A stretch of DNA of 64,000 nucleotides. It comes from Streptomyces sp. NBC_00247 (lineage in GTDB: Bacteria; Actinomycetota; Actinomycetes; Streptomycetales; Streptomycetaceae). The position numbers and the translations under genes were made by a program. The notes beneath the pieces are model-generated. The model was not told the DNA's origin. It ran no database searches and saw only the letters and a list, made by a program, of their open reading frames with translations. The DNA is taken from assembly GCF_036188265.1 (NCBI RefSeq), contig NZ_CP108093.1, positions 1,612,001-1,676,000 of the forward strand, given 5' to 3'. Of this stretch, positions 48,091-56,676 are shown piece by piece (position 1 is the stretch's first letter; the number at the start of each line of letters is the position of its first letter).

Positions 48091-48103
48091 TACTGCTGGG
48101 TTG

Positions 48104-48176
48104 TACCCCCGACCGGATTCGAACCGGCGCTACTGCCGTGAGAGGGCAGCGTGCTAGGCCGCTACACAACGGGGGC
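48104..48176 (-). tRNA. tRNA-Glu (CUC), copy 3
   Basis: 73-nt cloverleaf on the minus strand: acceptor GCCCCCG/CGGGGGT (closing G-U), anticodon arm CTGCC-CTCTCAC-GGCAG giving anticodon CUC, T arm GGTTCGAATCC. No encoded CCA. Part of the 189-bp duplication. Confidence 0.95.
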
Positions 48177-48218
48177 TTGTTACGAGAAGTCCTACGAACC
48201 ACGGACTTCGGACTTGCG

Positions 48219-48290
48219 CTGGGCTACCAGGACTCGAACCTAGAATGACGGTACCAGAAACCGTAGTGTTGCCAATTACACCATAGCCCA
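48219..48290 (-). tRNA. tRNA-Gln (CUG), copy 2
   Basis: 72 nt: acceptor TGGGCTA/TAGCCCA, anticodon loop TTCTGGT giving CUG, T loop GGTTCGAGTCC. Identical to the copy at 48553. Confidence 0.95.
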
Positions 48291-48302
48291 TGGTGTGGTA
48301 CG

Positions 48303-48375
48303 TACCCCCGACCGGATTCGAACCGGCGCTACTGCCGTGAGAGGGCAGCGTGCTAGGCCGCTACACAACGGGGGC
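48303..48375 (-). tRNA. tRNA-Glu (CUC), copy 2
   Basis: Same 73-nt sequence as the other two tRNA-Glu genes, but with different flanks (CCTAGCG spacer upstream), so it is not part of the duplicated pair. Confidence 0.95.
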
Positions 48376-48437
48376 CCTAGCGATCCTGCATCAAGAACAT
48401 CGGGTGCGACCCGGATTGTTCCCGCGGGAAGGATCTG

Positions 48438-48510
48438 TACCCCCGACCGGATTCGAACCGGCGCTACTGCCGTGAGAGGGCAGCGTGCTAGGCCGCTACA
48501 CAACGGGGGC
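48438..48510 (-). tRNA. tRNA-Glu (CUC), copy 1
   Basis: Identical to the gene at 48104-48176 and lies in the other 189-bp repeat copy, after tRNA-Gln. Confidence 0.95.
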
Positions 48511-48552
48511 TTGTTACGAGAAGTCCTACGAACCACGGACTTCGGACTTGCG

Positions 48553-48624
48553 CTGGGCTACCAGGACTCGAACCTAGAATGACGGTACCAGAAACCGTAG
48601 TGTTGCCAATTACACCATAGCCCA
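48553..48624 (-). tRNA. tRNA-Gln (CUG), copy 1
   Basis: First gene of the minus-strand tRNA array; anticodon CUG, 72 nt, identical to the copy at 48219. Confidence 0.95.
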
Positions 48625-49571: not shown

Positions 49572-51047
49572 TTACGCGGCGAGCTTCGCGAGGGCCGCGT
49601 CCACCCGGGCCAGGGTCTTCTCCCGGCCCAGGATCTCCATGGACTCGAAGAGCGGCAGCCCGACCGTGCGGCCGGTGACGGCGACGCGCACCGGGGCCTG
49701 CGCCTTGCCGAGCTTGAGGCCGTGGGCCTCGCCCGCCGCCAGGACGGCGCTCTTCAGCGCCTCGGCGTTCCACTCGGCACCGGCCAGGCCCGCGCGGGCG
49801 GTGGCCAGCAGGGCGTCGGAGCCCTCCTTCATCGCCTTGGTCCAGGACGCCTCGTCCTGGACCGGCTCGTCGAGGAAGAGGAAGTCGACGTTGGCGGTGA
49901 TGTCGGAGAGGACGGTCACCCGGGTCTGCGCGTGCGGCGCGATCTCGGCGAACTTCTCCGCGTCGAACGCTTCGGGGGCCCAGTTCGCGTACGGCGCCCG
50001 CAGCCAGGGACCGCACGCCTCGGTGAAGTCCTTCACGTCGAGCCGGCGGATGTGCTCGGCGTTGATGTGCTCGGCCTTCTTGAGGTCGAAGCGGGCCGGG
50101 TTGGCGTTGACGTCCGCGATGTCGAAGGCGGCCACCATCTCCTCGATCGAGAAGATGTCCCGGTCCTCGGCGATCGACCAGCCCAGCAGCGAGAGGTAGT
50201 TGAGCAGCCCCTCGGGGAGGAAGCCGCGCTCGCGGTAGAGGTTGAGCGACGCCTCCGGGTCCCGCTTGGACAGCTTCTTGTTGCCCTCGCCCATGACATA
50301 GGGGAGGTGGCCGAAGACCGGGGTGGCCTTGGCGATGCCCAGCTCGGTGAGGGCCGCGTACAGGGCGAGCTGGCGGGGGGTGGAGGAGAGCAGGTCCTCG
50401 CCGCGCAGGACGTGGGTGATCTCCATCAGCGCGTCGTCGACCGGGTTGACCAGCGTGTAGAGCGGGGCGCCGTTGGCGCGGACGATGCCGTAGTCCGGCA
50501 CGTTCTCCGGCTGGAAGGTCAGCTCGCCGCGCACCAGGTCGGTGAAGGTCTGCGGCACGTCGGGCATCCGGAAGCGCACGATGTGCGAGCGGCCCTCGGC
50601 CTCGTACGCCTCGACCTGCGCGGCGGTGAGCTCGCGGCAGTTGCCGTCGTACCCGGAGGGCTTGCCGGCGGCGCGCGCCGCGTCGCGGCGGGCGTCGAGC
50701 TCCTCGGTGGTGCAGTAGCAGTCGTACGCGTACCCGCCGGCCTTCAGCTTCTCGGCGACGTCACGGTAGATGTCCATCCGCTGCGACTGGCGGTACGGGG
50801 CGTGCGGGCCGCCGATCTCGGGGCCCTCGTTCCAGTCGAAGCCGAGCCAGCGCATCGAGTCGAGCAGCTGCTGGTACGACTCCTCGGAGTCGCGCGCCGC
50901 GTCGGTGTCCTCGATGCGGAAGACCAGCGAGCCCTCGTTGTGCCGGGCGAAGGCCCAGTTGAAGAGGGCCGTCCGGACCAGACCCACGTGGGGGTTGCCG
51001 GTCGGGGAGGGACAGAACCGGACTCGGGGGGAGGAGCCGTTAACCAC
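49572..51047 (-). CDS. gltX: Glutamyl-tRNA synthetase
   Basis: Class I synthetase charging tRNA-Glu (and tRNA-Gln for amidation in this phylum). 491 residues; HIGH-like [17 protein letters not shown] near the start, [25 protein letters not shown]-like [10 protein letters not shown], then the helical anticodon-binding domain. Its start overlaps the FAH gene's stop by 8 bases. The tRNA-Glu and tRNA-Gln genes lie just downstream. Confidence 0.96.
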
Positions 51048-51825
51048 GCTTGATCACCTTGTTGGTGAGAGTGCCGATGCCTTCGATGGTGACGGCGACC
51101 TCGTCGCCGACGTGCAGGGGGCCGACCCCCGCGGGGGTTCCGGTGAGGATGACGTCGCCCGGGAGGAGCGTCATCGCCTCGGAGATGTGCACGACCAGGT
51201 CCTCGATGGAGCGGACCATCTCGCTCGTACGGCCGAGCTGGCGCTGCTCACCGTTGACCGTCGTCTGGATCGTCAGGTCGGACGGGTCCAGGTCGGTCTC
51301 CACCCAGGGGCCGAGCGGGCAGGAGGTGTCGAAGCCCTTGGCCCGGGCCCACTGCTTCTCGCGCTTCTGCGCGTCACGGGCGGTGACGTCGTTGGCGCAG
51401 GTGTAGCCGAGGATGACGTCCTTGACGCGCTCGCGGGGGACCTCGCGGCACATCCGGCCGATCACCACGGCCAGTTCGGCCTCGTAGTGGACCTCGTTCG
51501 AGAAGGAGGGGTACTCGATGGCGTCGCCGGAACCGATCACCGAGGTGGTGGGCTTGAAGAAGGCGACCGGGACGTCCCCGACCTCGTTGCCCAGTTCGGC
51601 GGCGTGCTCCGCGTAGTTGCGGCCGATGGCCACGACCTTGTTGGGGAGCACGGGGGGCAGGAGCCGGACCTTGCTCAGCGGGACCTTGGTGCCGGAGAGC
51701 TCGAAGTCGGCGTACGGAATGCCCTTGATGATGTCGAGGACGAGGCCACCGGATTCCACGGTGCCCTCCCCCTCGACGGCGCCGAAGGCGACATTGCCGT
51801 CGATGGAGAACCTGGCGATGCGCAC
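51040..51825 (-). CDS. Fumarylacetoacetate hydrolase family protein
   Basis: 261 residues of the FAH/2-hydroxyhepta-2,4-diene-1,7-dioate isomerase fold: [36 protein letters not shown] (metal-binding ExE pattern), [14 protein letters not shown] and [18 protein letters not shown]. Such enzymes are often oxaloacetate decarboxylases or acylpyruvases; exact substrate unknown. GTG at 51825. Coupled to gltX by overlap, a conserved pair in Streptomyces. Confidence 0.88.
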
Positions 51826-51988: not shown

Positions 51989-52144
51989 CTACCTGAGGAT
52001 GGTGCGGCGGGGGTTGGCCGTCTGCGTGGGCAGCGTGGTGGGGTGCTCGGGCCGCTCGGGGGCGCGCAGCGAGGAGGCGTCCGGGAGGTGCGCCAGCGTG
52101 GTGCGCCGGGGGTTGGCGAGGCTGCGGGACTGCGTCGTGTTCAT
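51989..52144 (-). CDS. 51-residue protein with two NPRRT motifs
   Basis: A very short reading frame. Its product begins MNTTQSRSLANPRRTTLAHL and ends TQTANPRRTILR, so an (A)NPRRT(T/I)L motif occurs near both ends around a proline-rich middle (ASSLRAPERPEHPTTLP). Codon third positions are GC-biased as in real genes. ATG at 52144; AAGG about 14 nt upstream is weak. I seem to recall short proteins with this motif in other Streptomyces but cannot assign a function. Upstream lies a 22-bp palindrome. Confidence 0.55.
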   Translation of the reverse strand: MNTTQSRSLANPRRTTLAHLPDASSLRAPERPEHPTTLPTQTANPRRTILR

Positions 52145-52168: not shown

Positions 52169-52190
52169 GGGCGCACCCCGGGGTGCGCCC
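52169..52190. repeat. 22-bp perfect palindrome
   Basis: GGGCGCACCCC mirrored by GGGGTGCGCCC. It could be a hairpin or an operator upstream of the small gene at 51989-52144. Confidence 0.6.
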
Positions 52191-52725
52191 AGTTAGTCGG
52201 GTTCGCCATCCCAGTAAAGCGTCAGGCTAAACATCGGATTCCCGGCCGAGCCCCGGATGAGACCGCGATCATCATGTGAGTTTGCTCACCACTGACCCCC
52301 TAAATGCCGCATATCGGAATGATGATCACGCAAGAGAAAACGGACATTGCACCACTGAATGTTCTATTCCGCTCCTGATCATCAGGACTGGGACACCATG
52401 CTCGTCCGGCCACCCTGTCCGTAATGATCCACTTTCCACACGAACACGCTGCACGGCTGGTCACACGGCCATCACACCCCGTGACACCTACCCATGGGGA
52501 ACCCGCGGGCCTTGTTGGAGGTCCGGCACTGTGCTGGAATTCCACGCACCGCCGCGGGTAGAGACCGGCGCGCAGGGGCGCAACGCAGCGCCGAGTGGCG
52601 GCGGAGGGGGTTCAAGAACGCCGGTCGTTCATCGACCACCATGGGGCGCGTCCAGTGCCCCACGACGCCGACACCGTCACCACCGCGCATGCGGAGGGAC
52701 GCCTGGTCCAGAGGTTGCGACGCTA
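52191..52725. other. Regulatory region upstream of first conservon
   Basis: About 535 bp, distinctly AT-richer than its surroundings between 52190 and 52440. Two small palindromes stand out: GTGAG-TTTG-CTCAC (52276-52289) and CTGAT-C-ATCAG (52375-52385). The cvnA frame stays open far upstream of its likely start but lacks coding character. Likely promoter and operators of the conservon. Confidence 0.5.
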
Positions 52726-55700
52726 GTGCAGGGACGTTTCAAGAGGGATGGCAGCGCTCCGGCGGAACAGGAGCCGCGCGGCGGGACCGACCGCGGTTCC
52801 TCGCCCCAGCACGCCCAGAACCCCGGGTCGGCAGGCGCCGGCGACGGCGCGGAGCAGACTCCTCGCCCGGGCTCCACGACGACGACGAACGCCGAGCCGG
52901 CGGCTGCGGCGAAACCCCGGGACCCGGTGAGCACGGGTTCACGCGTAGCCCTGCGTAACTGGCGCATCAGTACCCGCCTGGTCTCCCTCCTGGCACTCCC
53001 CGTGGTCGCGGCGACCTCGCTGGGCGGACTCCGCATCAACGAGTCCATGAACGACATGCAGCAGCTGGAGCACATGCAGCTGCTGACGCAGATGACCAAG
53101 CAGGCGACCGCGCTCGCGCAGGCGCTGCAGGTCGAGCGTGACGAGTCGGCGGGACCGCTCTCCAACGGCGTGAAGGCGACCAACTACAAGGTCACCGAAC
53201 CCCGGAAGAAGACGGACCGGGCCAAGGAAGCCTTCCTCGACGCCACCATGGCCATCGGGGACACCCAGAACGACGAGGCGCTCGAAGGCATCCACGCCAG
53301 CGTCAACATGATCGCGACGCAGCTCGGGCAGATCCGCGACATCCGCAAGACCGCGTACGCCAAGGGCACGCCGAGCGTCAACACGATCGACCAGTACAGC
53401 CAGTTGATCACCTCGCTGCTGAGCCTCTCGCAGGACATGGCCCAGGCGACCTCCAGCCCGGAGATGATCAAGCGCACCCGTGCGCTGGCCGCCTTCTCCT
53501 CCGCGAAGGAGTACGCCTCGGTCCAGCGGGCGATCATCGCCGCCGCGCTGCCGGGCGGGAACAGCACGAAGACACGTCTCGCCGACAACGACAAGCAGTT
53601 CGGTCGCAACGCGCTCCGCAAGGAGAGCCTCGCGATGAACTCCTTCGAGACCATCTACGCGACCACCGGGAACAGCGCCTCCGACCTCACCGCACCGCTC
53701 GACAGCGGCAACCCGGAGATCCAGGCGGCCGACACCTACGCCAAGCAGGTGCTGGACACGACGGTCGGCATGAACGGGCGCAAGCCGCGTTCGTACCTCG
53801 ACTGGTACGACCAGAGCTCCACCAAGATCCAGGCGATGGAGACCATCGAGGCGACCCTCCTCAGCGACATGGAGGGCAAGGCCCGCGAGCTGCGCGAGGC
53901 CTCCCAGCGCGAGGCGATCCTCAACGGAGCCATCATCCTGCTGGTGCTCGGCGTCTCGCTCGTCGGCGCCTTCGTCGTGGCGCGGTCCATGATCCGCTCG
54001 CTGCGCCGCCTCCAGGACACCGCGACCCGGGTCGCCCAGGACCGGCTGCCCGAGCTCGTCCGGCAGCTCTCCGAGACCGACCCGCAGGACGTCGACACCT
54101 CCGTCGAGTCCGTCGGTGTCCACTCCCGCGACGAGATCGGCCAGGTGGCCGCGGCCTTCGACGACGTGCACCGCGAGGCCGTGCGTCTCGCCGCCGAGCA
54201 GGCCCTCCTGCGAGGGAACGTCAACGCGATGTTCACCAACCTCTCGCGCCGCAGCCAGGGCCTCATCCAGCGCCAGCTCTCGCTCATCTCCGAGCTGGAG
54301 TCCCGCGAGGCCGACCCGGACCAGCTGTCCTCGCTCTTCAAGCTCGACCACCTCGCGACCCGTATGCGCCGCAACGGCGAGAACCTCCTCGTCCTCGCCG
54401 GTGAGGAACCGGGTCGCCGCTGGACCCGCCCCGTCCCGCTGGTCGACGTGCTCCGCGCCGCCGCGTCCGAGGTGGAGCAGTACGAGCGCATCGAACTGGC
54501 CGCCGTGCCCGCCACCGAAGTGGCCGGCCGGGTCGTCAACGACCTCGTGCACCTGCTCGCCGAGCTGCTGGAGAACGCCACGTCGTTCTCCTCGCCGCAG
54601 ACGAAGGTGCGGGTCACCGGTCACGCCCTGCCGGACGGCCGGGTGCTCGTCGAGATCCACGACACCGGTATCGGCCTCTCTCCCGAGGACCTCGCGGCCA
54701 TCAACGAGCGACTCGCCTCGCCGCCCACCGTGGACGTGTCGGTCTCCCGACGCATGGGTCTGTTCGTGGTCGGCCGGCTCTCCCTGCGTCACGGCATCCG
54801 CATCCAGCTCCGGCCCTCCGACTCCGGCGGCACCACGGCGCTCGTCATGCTGCCCGTGGACGTCGCGCACGGCGGCAAGCAGCCGCCGACCAAGCAGGGC
54901 GCGGGCCAGCAGCAGGCCCCCGGCGGTCTGCTCGCCGGCGGCGGCGCTCCGCGCGCCGGTCTCGGCGGTCCGACGGCCGGAGCCAAGGGGCTCCCGGGTG
55001 CCGCGCGCGGCCAGGTCGGCGCGGGCTCCGGTCCGCGTGCGGCGCTGCCGTCGCGCGACACCGCGGCGCGCGGTCCTCAGCAGGGCGGCATGCCCCAGCG
55101 GCAGCCGGGCGGCCCGTCCGTCTCGCAGGCAGGGCCGCAGGCCGGTCGCCCGCAGGCGCCGCAGGGTCCGCAGGACTTCGGGCGGCCCGAGCCGCAGCGG
55201 CAGGGCGGTGCCCTCGGCGGTGGCGCCCGGCTGGGCGCTCGCGGCGCGCAGGGCGGTCCTGAGCAGGACCAGCCGAACCTCTTCGGACACAACGCCCCGG
55301 CCCCGCAGGCCCCGACGGGAGCTCAGGCGCCCATGGGGCAGCAGGCCCCGATGGGCCGGCCGGAGCAGGGTGGCCGTCCCGTACGGCAGGACGTGTTCGG
55401 CGGAGCCAACGGACAGCAGCAGTGGCAGGGCAGCCCCGCCAACCCGGGCAACCAGAACGGCCAGACCGGTCAGTTCGGCCAAGGCCAGGGCGATCAGTTC
55501 GGCCAGAACGGCCAGAACGGTCAGAGCGGCCAGTTCGGCCTGGGCGATCAGTTCGGTCAGGGCGATCAGTTCGGTCAGGGCGATCAGTTCGCTCAGGGCC
55601 AGGGCGGCCAGTTCGCTCAGGGCCAGGGCGGTCAGCCCGCGTTCGGCCGGGACCAGGGCAACCAGCCCCAGGGCGGCCAGGGTCAGCGCGGGTTCCAGCA

Positions 55701-56676
55701 GCCCGGCGGTCCCGGCCGTCAGCTGCCGCCGCCCGGTGGCCCGCGTGCCGAGCTGCCCGGGGGCAACCCGCAGCCGCAGCATCCGCAGCCGCAGACCACC
55801 ACCTGGGGCATGGAGGACCAGGGCGCGCAGCGCCGCGGTCCCGCCGACGCGCCGCGCGGGCACGAAGAGGCCGAGGCCACGGGTCAGTTCGCGGCCGGTA
55901 CGGGACCCGTCCCGAACCGGAACTTCAACTCCCCGCTGAACCGGCGCACTCCCGGCGACGACCGCCAGGGGCCGGGCTCCACCTCGGAGTTCGCCCGCCC
56001 GGACTTCTCGGCGCCGCAGGTCCCGCAGTCGCAGGACCCCGCGGGCACCGCACAGTTCGCCCGTCCCGACTTCGGGGCTCCGGACCAGGGTCTGCCCGCT
56101 CCGCGCCAGTACGGCAACACCGACGAGCACGGTGTGCCGCGTCCGGCTCCGGCCGCCGAGCCGCCCCAGCGTTCGCTGCCGCCGCGCCGTCCCGCACCGG
56201 AGGCGCTGCCGCCGGCCGGTCCGGGCGACGGCCGTACACCGCTGTACGACACCCTCGAAACCAACTGGTTCCACGGTCCGCAGCAGGGCGGCAGGCCGGC
56301 CGAGGCGGCACCTTCACCGTCCGACGGCGTTCCGGCCGAGGCGGCTCCGCGCCGCTCCTCCGGTGACGCGACGCCGGCCGGTCCGTGGCGGGCTTCGCCC
56401 AACGACGAACTCGTACGTCAGGCCGAGCGGGTCAAGAAGCCGGCCGCCGGCGGTGTCACCACTTCGGGGCTTCCCCGGCGGGTTCCGCGTGCCAATTTGG
56501 TTCCCGGTACCGCTCAGCAGCAGAATCACCAGACCGGACCTCAGGTTTCGCGTGCGCCCGACGACGTGCGCGGGCGTCTGACCAATCTCCGCCGGGGCAT
56601 CCAGCAGGGTCGGCAGGCGAACAGCCAGTCGACCGGCAGCTTCCAACTCGGCCCCACTCACCAGCAGGAGCGTTAG
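52726..56676 (+). CDS. cvnA: Conservon sensor kinase-like protein CvnA (first conservon)
   Basis: 1316-residue membrane protein. N-terminal linker, membrane helix 1 at about 85-105, an extracytoplasmic nitrate/nitrite-sensor-like (NIT) region of about 290 residues, membrane helix 2 at about 400-422, HAMP, H-box-like LFKLDHLATRMRRNGENLLV at about 537, N-box LLAELLENATSF and G-box HDTGIGLS. The last 600 residues are a disordered Gln/Gly/Pro tail ending in the motif TSGLPRRVPRANLVPGT shared with the second CvnA. GTG at 52726 gives VQGRFKRDG; other starts are possible. In S. coelicolor cvn9 the four Cvn proteins form a membrane complex like eukaryotic G-protein systems. Confidence 0.92.
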   Translation: MQGRFKRDGSAPAEQEPRGGTDRGSSPQHAQNPGSAGAGDGAEQTPRPGSTTTTNAEPAAAAKPRDPVSTGSRVALRNWRISTRLVSLLALPVVAATSLGGLRINESMNDMQQLEHMQLLTQMTKQATALAQALQVERDESAGPLSNGVKATNYKVTEPRKKTDRAKEAFLDATMAIGDTQNDEALEGIHASVNMIATQLGQIRDIRKTAYAKGTPSVNTIDQYSQLITSLLSLSQDMAQATSSPEMIKRTRALAAFSSAKEYASVQRAIIAAALPGGNSTKTRLADNDKQFGRNALRKESLAMNSFETIYATTGNSASDLTAPLDSGNPEIQAADTYAKQVLDTTVGMNGRKPRSYLDWYDQSSTKIQAMETIEATLLSDMEGKARELREASQREAILNGAIILLVLGVSLVGAFVVARSMIRSLRRLQDTATRVAQDRLPELVRQLSETDPQDVDTSVESVGVHSRDEIGQVAAAFDDVHREAVRLAAEQALLRGNVNAMFTNLSRRSQGLIQRQLSLISELESREADPDQLSSLFKLDHLATRMRRNGENLLVLAGEEPGRRWTRPVPLVDVLRAAASEVEQYERIELAAVPATEVAGRVVNDLVHLLAELLENATSFSSPQTKVRVTGHALPDGRVLVEIHDTGIGLSPEDLAAINERLASPPTVDVSVSRRMGLFVVGRLSLRHGIRIQLRPSDSGGTTALVMLPVDVAHGGKQPPTKQGAGQQQAPGGLLAGGGAPRAGLGGPTAGAKGLPGAARGQVGAGSGPRAALPSRDTAARGPQQGGMPQRQPGGPSVSQAGPQAGRPQAPQGPQDFGRPEPQRQGGALGGGARLGARGAQGGPEQDQPNLFGHNAPAPQAPTGAQAPMGQQAPMGRPEQGGRPVRQDVFGGANGQQQWQGSPANPGNQNGQTGQFGQGQGDQFGQNGQNGQSGQFGLGDQFGQGDQFGQGDQFAQGQGGQFAQGQGGQPAFGRDQGNQPQGGQGQRGFQQPGGPGRQLPPPGGPRAELPGGNPQPQHPQPQTTTWGMEDQGAQRRGPADAPRGHEEAEATGQFAAGTGPVPNRNFNSPLNRRTPGDDRQGPGSTSEFARPDFSAPQVPQSQDPAGTAQFARPDFGAPDQGLPAPRQYGNTDEHGVPRPAPAAEPPQRSLPPRRPAPEALPPAGPGDGRTPLYDTLETNWFHGPQQGGRPAEAAPSPSDGVPAEAAPRRSSGDATPAGPWRASPNDELVRQAERVKKPAAGGVTTSGLPRRVPRANLVPGTAQQQNHQTGPQVSRAPDDVRGRLTNLRRGIQQGRQANSQSTGSFQLGPTHQQER
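55441..55660 (+). repeat. Tandem coding repeats in CvnA tail
   Basis: An 18-bp unit (GGTCAGGGCGATCAGTTC) occurs about three times, followed by two copies of a 27-bp unit (FAQGQGGQ in protein) and preceded by AACGGCCAG repeats. The protein reads FGQGDQFGQGDQFAQGQGGQ. Such repeats are prone to slippage. Confidence 0.75.

Follow-up and report, generated by a model that had tools for sequence, protein, structure and literature searches.

A 51-codon open reading frame (ORF) on the minus strand of a 64,000-nucleotide stretch of DNA from Streptomyces sp. NBC_00247 (hereafter, the window) is a genuine gene and not a product of chance. Its translation, MNTTQSRSLANPRRTTLAHLPDASSLRAPERPEHPTTLPTQTANPRRTILR, carries two copies of an ANPRRT motif, as the original prediction had stated (Table 1). 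We suggest, with a probability of about 0.6, that the gene product is a mini-protein conserved in the Streptomycetaceae, cytoplasmic and for the most part unstructured, whose function resides in two linear TANPRRTx(L/V) motifs for a partner.

Table 1. Features of the small gene and its surroundings (window coordinates)
Feature	Position	Strand	Remarks
Small gene	51989..52144	-	ATG-started ORF, 51 codons/residues
Motif copy 1, ANPRRTTL	52094..52117	-	residues 10-17
Motif copy 2, ANPRRTIL	51995..52018	-	residues 43-50; Thr just before
FAH-family hydrolase gene	51040..51825	-	next gene downstream; own promoter-like block in most relatives
gltX, glutamyl-tRNA synthetase	49572..51047	-	name presumed from family features of its sequence
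cvnA1-type histidine-kinase-like gene (conservon 1)	52726..56676	+	divergent; start codon approximate
CRP/GlxR-like palindrome GTGAGTTTGCTCAC (minus strand GTGAGCAAACTCAC)	52276..52289	.	conserved
TAGCCT, presumed -10 element of small gene	52224..52229	-	inside conserved block 52214-52229
22-bp palindrome	52169..52190	.	strain-specific, not counted as a working part

The ORF is short, and the window is rich in long spurious ORFs on both strands, as would be expected if this were one more frame open by chance in GC-rich DNA, its repeat a coincidence. The prediction had held the repeat and the GC-biased third positions to be hard to explain by chance. G or C indeed occupies 100% of the third codon positions, and an exact six-residue repeat arose in 231 of 400,000 composition shuffles, which makes the repeat by itself unlikely by chance, yet not decisive. 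Conservation in relatives is the stronger proof. In a single-protein search of 61 genomes, 34 of the 36 same-genus relatives matched at E <= 3e-10, with no stop codon within the match; the two exceptions, which lack a match of this strength, are the genomes G001 and G010, 79% and 93% complete, respectively. The frame is thus kept in close relatives, whose lack of it would have refuted the original prediction. A 28-row profile (A1) found a match in 389 of 394 Streptomycetaceae genomes, and the motif residues stay constant while their codons change synonymously. On these grounds we conclude that the gene is real, and we give the chance reading practically no weight.

Among the five genomes missed by the A1 profile, three (G061, G077 and G088) proved on inspection to have the gene in its usual place with two TANPRRT copies. 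A fourth, G197, is a 71% complete genome in which FAH is missing as well, and the fifth, G074, has neither such a frame nor a TANPRRT pattern and retains cvnA, FAH and gltX. With a broader profile (A5), matches appeared in 375 of 376 genomes of the family, and none of 15 genomes from elsewhere in the order gave one; the sole family miss, G777, is without the small gene and its promoter and retains the palindrome. The losses in G074 and G777 indicate that at least two lineages can live without the small gene. The one in G777 is a natural deletion (locus L293, ~1320-1400 on the locus reverse strand), after which the retained palindrome precedes the FAH-side TAGCCT by 66 nt, counted from start to start. 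At the class level all 28 family genomes matched and 5 of 268 others did so weakly (E 8e-4 to 4e-3), and at the phylum level 9 of 9 family genomes matched and 1 of 287 others (E 7e-4, within a 257-residue frame). In 15 non-family genomes with FAH, neither a nearby cvnA nor a motif ORF was found within the fetched locus. A plasmid search with a consensus query returned two matches only, at E 6-7, which we take as noise, and a single-motif ORF (L110 in G062, E 0.009) was dropped as a chance match after inspection of its neighbours. As far as sampled, the small gene thus appears to be a feature of the Streptomycetaceae, with no convincing relative outside the family. It should be noted that the sampled loci are mostly the best-scoring ones, which inflates the apparent conservation.

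From 187 ORFs selected for at least two motif copies we obtained 158 unique homologues, with a length of 51-100 residues and a median of 62. The family can therefore be described as proteins of ~50-100 residues with at least two TANPRRTx(L/V)-like copies; given this preselection, 157 of the 158 have two copies and one (L090) has three. The third copy, seen in a single species (G402), reads TANPVRT. Rates of substitution, pooled over a draw of 1,500 from the 8,639 pairs at 75-92% DNA identity, differ strongly along the protein: dN/dS is 0.005 in motif 1 and 0.17 in motif 2, 0.14 in an LPxQT segment, 0.41 in AHLxDAxEL, 0.48 in the N-terminus, 0.59 in the tail and 0.65 in the linker (0.36 for the whole protein). 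Synonymous codons within the motifs vary, which points to selection on the protein rather than on the DNA. When other genera were added to the alignment, the invariant residues were ANP-RT in copy 1 and TANP-R in copy 2; across genera, the fixed part is just the two copies of TANPRRTx(L/V); in Streptomyces members, Ile or Leu replaces the first Thr of copy 1. The motifs are 33 residues apart in 131 of 158 homologues (range 30-54, and about 63 in G065), indicating that, despite this range, the length of the linker is not free within Streptomyces. Besides the motifs, a 28-row alignment shows conserved N-terminal segments, KTTMMFR and AHLxDA, which could have a function of their own. The window protein ends directly after motif 2, without the tail usual in relatives. 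In the genome of the window, the pattern ANP(R-like)(R-like)T occurs in eight places, two of which are the small gene, and the other six are not TANPRRTx(L/V). A scan of 61 family genomes for the TANPRRT pattern gave 30 loci that were translated, of which 27 are the small gene and three (L246, L251 and L266) are chance matches.

Structure prediction points to a protein that is probably disordered until bound: with two alignments, AlphaFold gave mean pLDDT values of 61.0 and 61.6 and pTM values of 0.16 and 0.19, with short helices only, low confidence of this kind being no proof of disorder. The small protein had no match in Pfam, NCBIfam or PDB sequences, and its best hit in PHROGs had an E value of 0.16; a Pfam search with 28 family members at E <= 1 matched none of them.

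The predicted location, between FAH/gltX and a conservon, was borne out not only in the window but also in relatives. The assignment of the conservon to cvn1 is based on locus position and the literature. The small gene is adjoined by cvnA in all 80 named Streptomyces loci, and FAH and gltX are found in 78 of the 80, whereas in the remaining two the contig stops no more than 90 nt from the match; cvnA and FAH lie on opposite strands in 21 of 21 among the loci listed. In 11 wide loci of other lineages, cvnA and FAH are each present in 11 and gltX in 7. In two loci (L142 and L160) the small gene is separated from FAH by 1.8-1.9 kb, and FAH has a promoter-like block of its own in 112 of 155 cases. 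From the incomplete presence of gltX, these gaps and the separate FAH block, it follows that cvnA is the firm neighbour. Downstream of gltX lies a run of five tRNA genes, in the order Glu, Gln, Glu, Glu, Gln (48103-48624, minus strand), with near-repeats in their flanks, so that the gene of a charging enzyme stands next to those of its tRNAs.

The region between the small gene and cvnA1 contains conserved non-coding elements. A GTGA-N6-TCAC palindrome lies upstream of the small gene in 153 of 158 homologues and in 0 of 155 downstream control stretches, and the exact form GTGAGNAAACTCAC has a single occurrence in the genome. Within the 200 nt upstream, 145 of 158 homologues have the hexamer TAGCCT, and 91 of 158 have the longer form GTTTAGCCTGANGCTTTA; the hexamer belongs to a conserved block around TAGCCTGACGCTTTAC. 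In all 145 cases with both elements, the distance from the centre of the palindrome to the first base of the hexamer is 53.5 nt (124 cases) or 52.5 nt (21 cases), and the distance from TAGCCT to the start codon is anywhere between 44 and 133 nt. In the established class I logic of CRP, an activator that touches RNA polymerase needs a fixed spacing. Spacing is fixed here on the palindrome-hexamer side only, as such an activator would need, and we infer that a CRP-like activator probably drives transcription of the small gene from the TAGCCT promoter. A consensus scan for sigma-70 promoters and terminators between 51700 and 52800 found none. A second conserved block lies upstream of cvnA1 (~52345-52420, ~190-250 nt from the start of the small gene) and contains, on the plus strand, GGACAC, which we take to be possibly a WhiA-type site. 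As given in passages of one paper, the consensus of S. coelicolor Crp (SCO3571) is GTG(N)6GNCAC and the GlxR form is GTG(N)8CAC (PMC10033298); the palindrome, read as GTGAGCAAACTCAC, departs from the former by a C for G at one position and fits the latter.

A different palindrome, of 22 bp, had been named in the original prediction as lying upstream of the gene. It is present, in the presumed 5' leader directly upstream of the start codon, but it is strain-specific, and the conserved palindrome is the CRP/GlxR-like one. The 22-bp stretch has no conservation in relatives, and in 135 leaders the mean z score for a hairpin is -0.02 (6 of 135 below -2), showing that it is not a conserved element. 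In Rfam, a single match below the threshold (E 0.51) turned up, and no known RNA element. Beyond the stop codon, the first 70 nt folded slightly better than shuffled sequence, with a mean z of -1.22 (12 of 50 below -2), and the folding control of equal-length coding sequence had +1.09 (0 of 50 below -2). This is suggestive of a terminator in these 70 nt, but it is not proof.

Several other roles can be imagined for so small a protein. The NPRR turns resemble minor-groove motifs of the SPKK/AT-hook type and might put arginines into DNA or RNA, making the protein a small nucleoid or RNA-associated factor, and both the two PRR cores and the net charge of +5 of the window protein agree with this. 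However, the median net charge of the 158 homologues is 0, since acidic linkers and tails are frequent, and the Ala, Asn, Thr and Leu residues that flank the arginines are equally fixed; we regard nucleic-acid binding as unlikely. The ORF could also be a leader or arrest peptide that controls FAH-gltX, which in 78 of the 80 named loci follows next on its strand. We consider this very unlikely given FAH's own promoter-like block, the two long gaps before FAH and the presence of gltX in fewer of the wide loci than cvnA; moreover, selection is on two separated motifs and not on a C-terminal arrest sequence, the tail being variable, and the Rfam result speaks against it too.

The small size, the repeated core and the copy number of two to three are reminiscent of a peptide precursor whose product is modified or secreted (i.e., a RiPP or a pheromone), and two of the roles originally proposed, a precursor peptide and a signalling peptide, are of this kind. 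Both are disfavoured: Cys and Trp are absent from all 158 homologues, no hydrophobic signal sequence is visible on inspection, and variation is found in the linker and the tail, not in a core. We found no leader and core accompanied by maturation genes among the mapped neighbours, which are cvnA/B, FAH and gltX, the reference genes covered by the mapping in relatives. Such a precursor is thus highly improbable. Another small actinobacterial protein, the prokaryotic ubiquitin-like protein Pup, has ~60 residues, is disordered and often ends in Glu or Gln. The small protein resembles it in size, predicted disorder, host and a frequent C-terminal Glu/Gln. However, the C-terminal residue is not conserved: Glu or Gln is last in 101 of the 158 homologues, in tails that are otherwise variable, and another residue in 57, including the window copy, which ends in Arg rather than in the Gly-Gly-Gln/Glu of Pup. 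None of the 28 members searched matched a Pfam family, the Pup domain included, and the fixed core is an internal repeated motif. A conjugated or degradation-tag protein of this type seems to us extremely improbable.

Of the three roles first proposed, a small adaptor fits best, as two linear motifs of the protein are invariant and the rest of its chain evolves fast. In the general class of proteins that repeat a short linear motif, few residues are fixed, and they recur within a quickly changing chain; the small protein is built in the same way, with the difference that TANPRRTx(L/V) has no match in the library families searched. We propose that the linker holds the two motifs apart and that the protein acts as a two-handed ligand, each motif docking into a peptide-binding site of a partner whose two docking sites would be, for example, those of a dimer. 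The partner would thereby be bridged, recruited or occluded, with the pair of motifs providing avidity.

As the leading candidate for this partner we tentatively name Cvn1 (CvnA1/CvnB1), the actinobacterial G-protein system encoded alongside, a possible choice though not a probable one. The shared control region could alone account for the constant adjacency to cvnA, and G074 and G777, in which the cvnA start is intact and the small gene is missing next to it, imply that Cvn1 can do without it. The C-terminal tail of CvnA1 (SGLPRRVPRANL; TTSGLPRRVPRANLVPGTAQ) is nearly invariant in loci L113-L204 and closes a low-complexity region (window ~56400-56676); SGLPRRVPRANL was found in 70 frames among the 92 loci scanned. 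This tail may itself be a docking motif. It has the PRR core in common with TANPRRTx(L/V) and nothing more, a weak resemblance, and the small protein may compete with it. We further speculate that the small protein is a CRP-type-activated, disordered peptide component of Cvn1, which would dock both motifs on dimeric CvnA1 or a CvnB1 dimer and thereby link a cAMP-type signal to the control by Cvn1 of aerial growth and antibiotic production; taken as a whole, this proposal is rather unlikely.

Small disordered proteins and accessory proteins of conservons have both been described. CrsL (MSMEG_5890/Rv3489) is a CarD-binding disordered protein of 5.7 kDa, conserved in actinobacteria, whose conserved residues 20-45 fold as a helix-turn-helix on CarD, according to the passages available (PMC12709188). 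The likeness lies in very small size, intrinsic disorder (here predicted) and actinobacterial origin; compared by description, CrsL has one conserved stretch (PMC12709188), whereas the protein studied here has two separated short motifs. AlphaFold of the single protein gave no CrsL-like helix hairpin, which is weak evidence only. Nevertheless, CrsL demonstrates that disordered mini-proteins can be regulators (PMC12709188). Among conservon accessories, passages of a second paper describe CvnE as a cytochrome P450 and CvnF as a GAF protein, both encoded after the conservon operon, and tie such accessories to CvnA proteins without a sensory domain (PMC13343842). The small gene likewise adjoins a conservon and its product is a candidate modulator of a CvnA kinase, but the protein is domainless and encoded divergently; neither a P450 nor a GAF domain was found in the 28 members at Pfam E <= 1.

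In the parts of the literature available to us, cvnA1 is SCO5544, the region upstream of it is reported to be bound by BldC, BldD and WhiAB, and the cvn1 mutant is impaired in aerial mycelium. A ranking table lists SCO5546, which we take to be FAH, among hypothetical proteins of wide conservation. The S. coelicolor numbering seems to leave room for SCO5545 at this place, so that the gene, originally described as overlooked, is probably already recorded as a 'hypothetical protein'. We found no paper on SCO5545 or on SCO5547/SCO5548/gltX, and none on the small gene in the literature searched, with subscription journals and supplements outside its scope; matches to NPRRT were unrelated.

These data describe a gene that is near-universal in the sampled genomes of the main antibiotic-producing family, with a fixed place, tightly conserved control sites and no family in the libraries searched. 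As it lies by the intergenic region reported to be bound by BldC, BldD and WhiAB, effects ascribed to the regulation of cvnA1 may partly be its own. A receptor of the small protein would be a conserved, undescribed peptide-binding site of Streptomyces, and if the protein is a component of Cvn1, it would be a new peptide component of an actinobacterial G-protein system.
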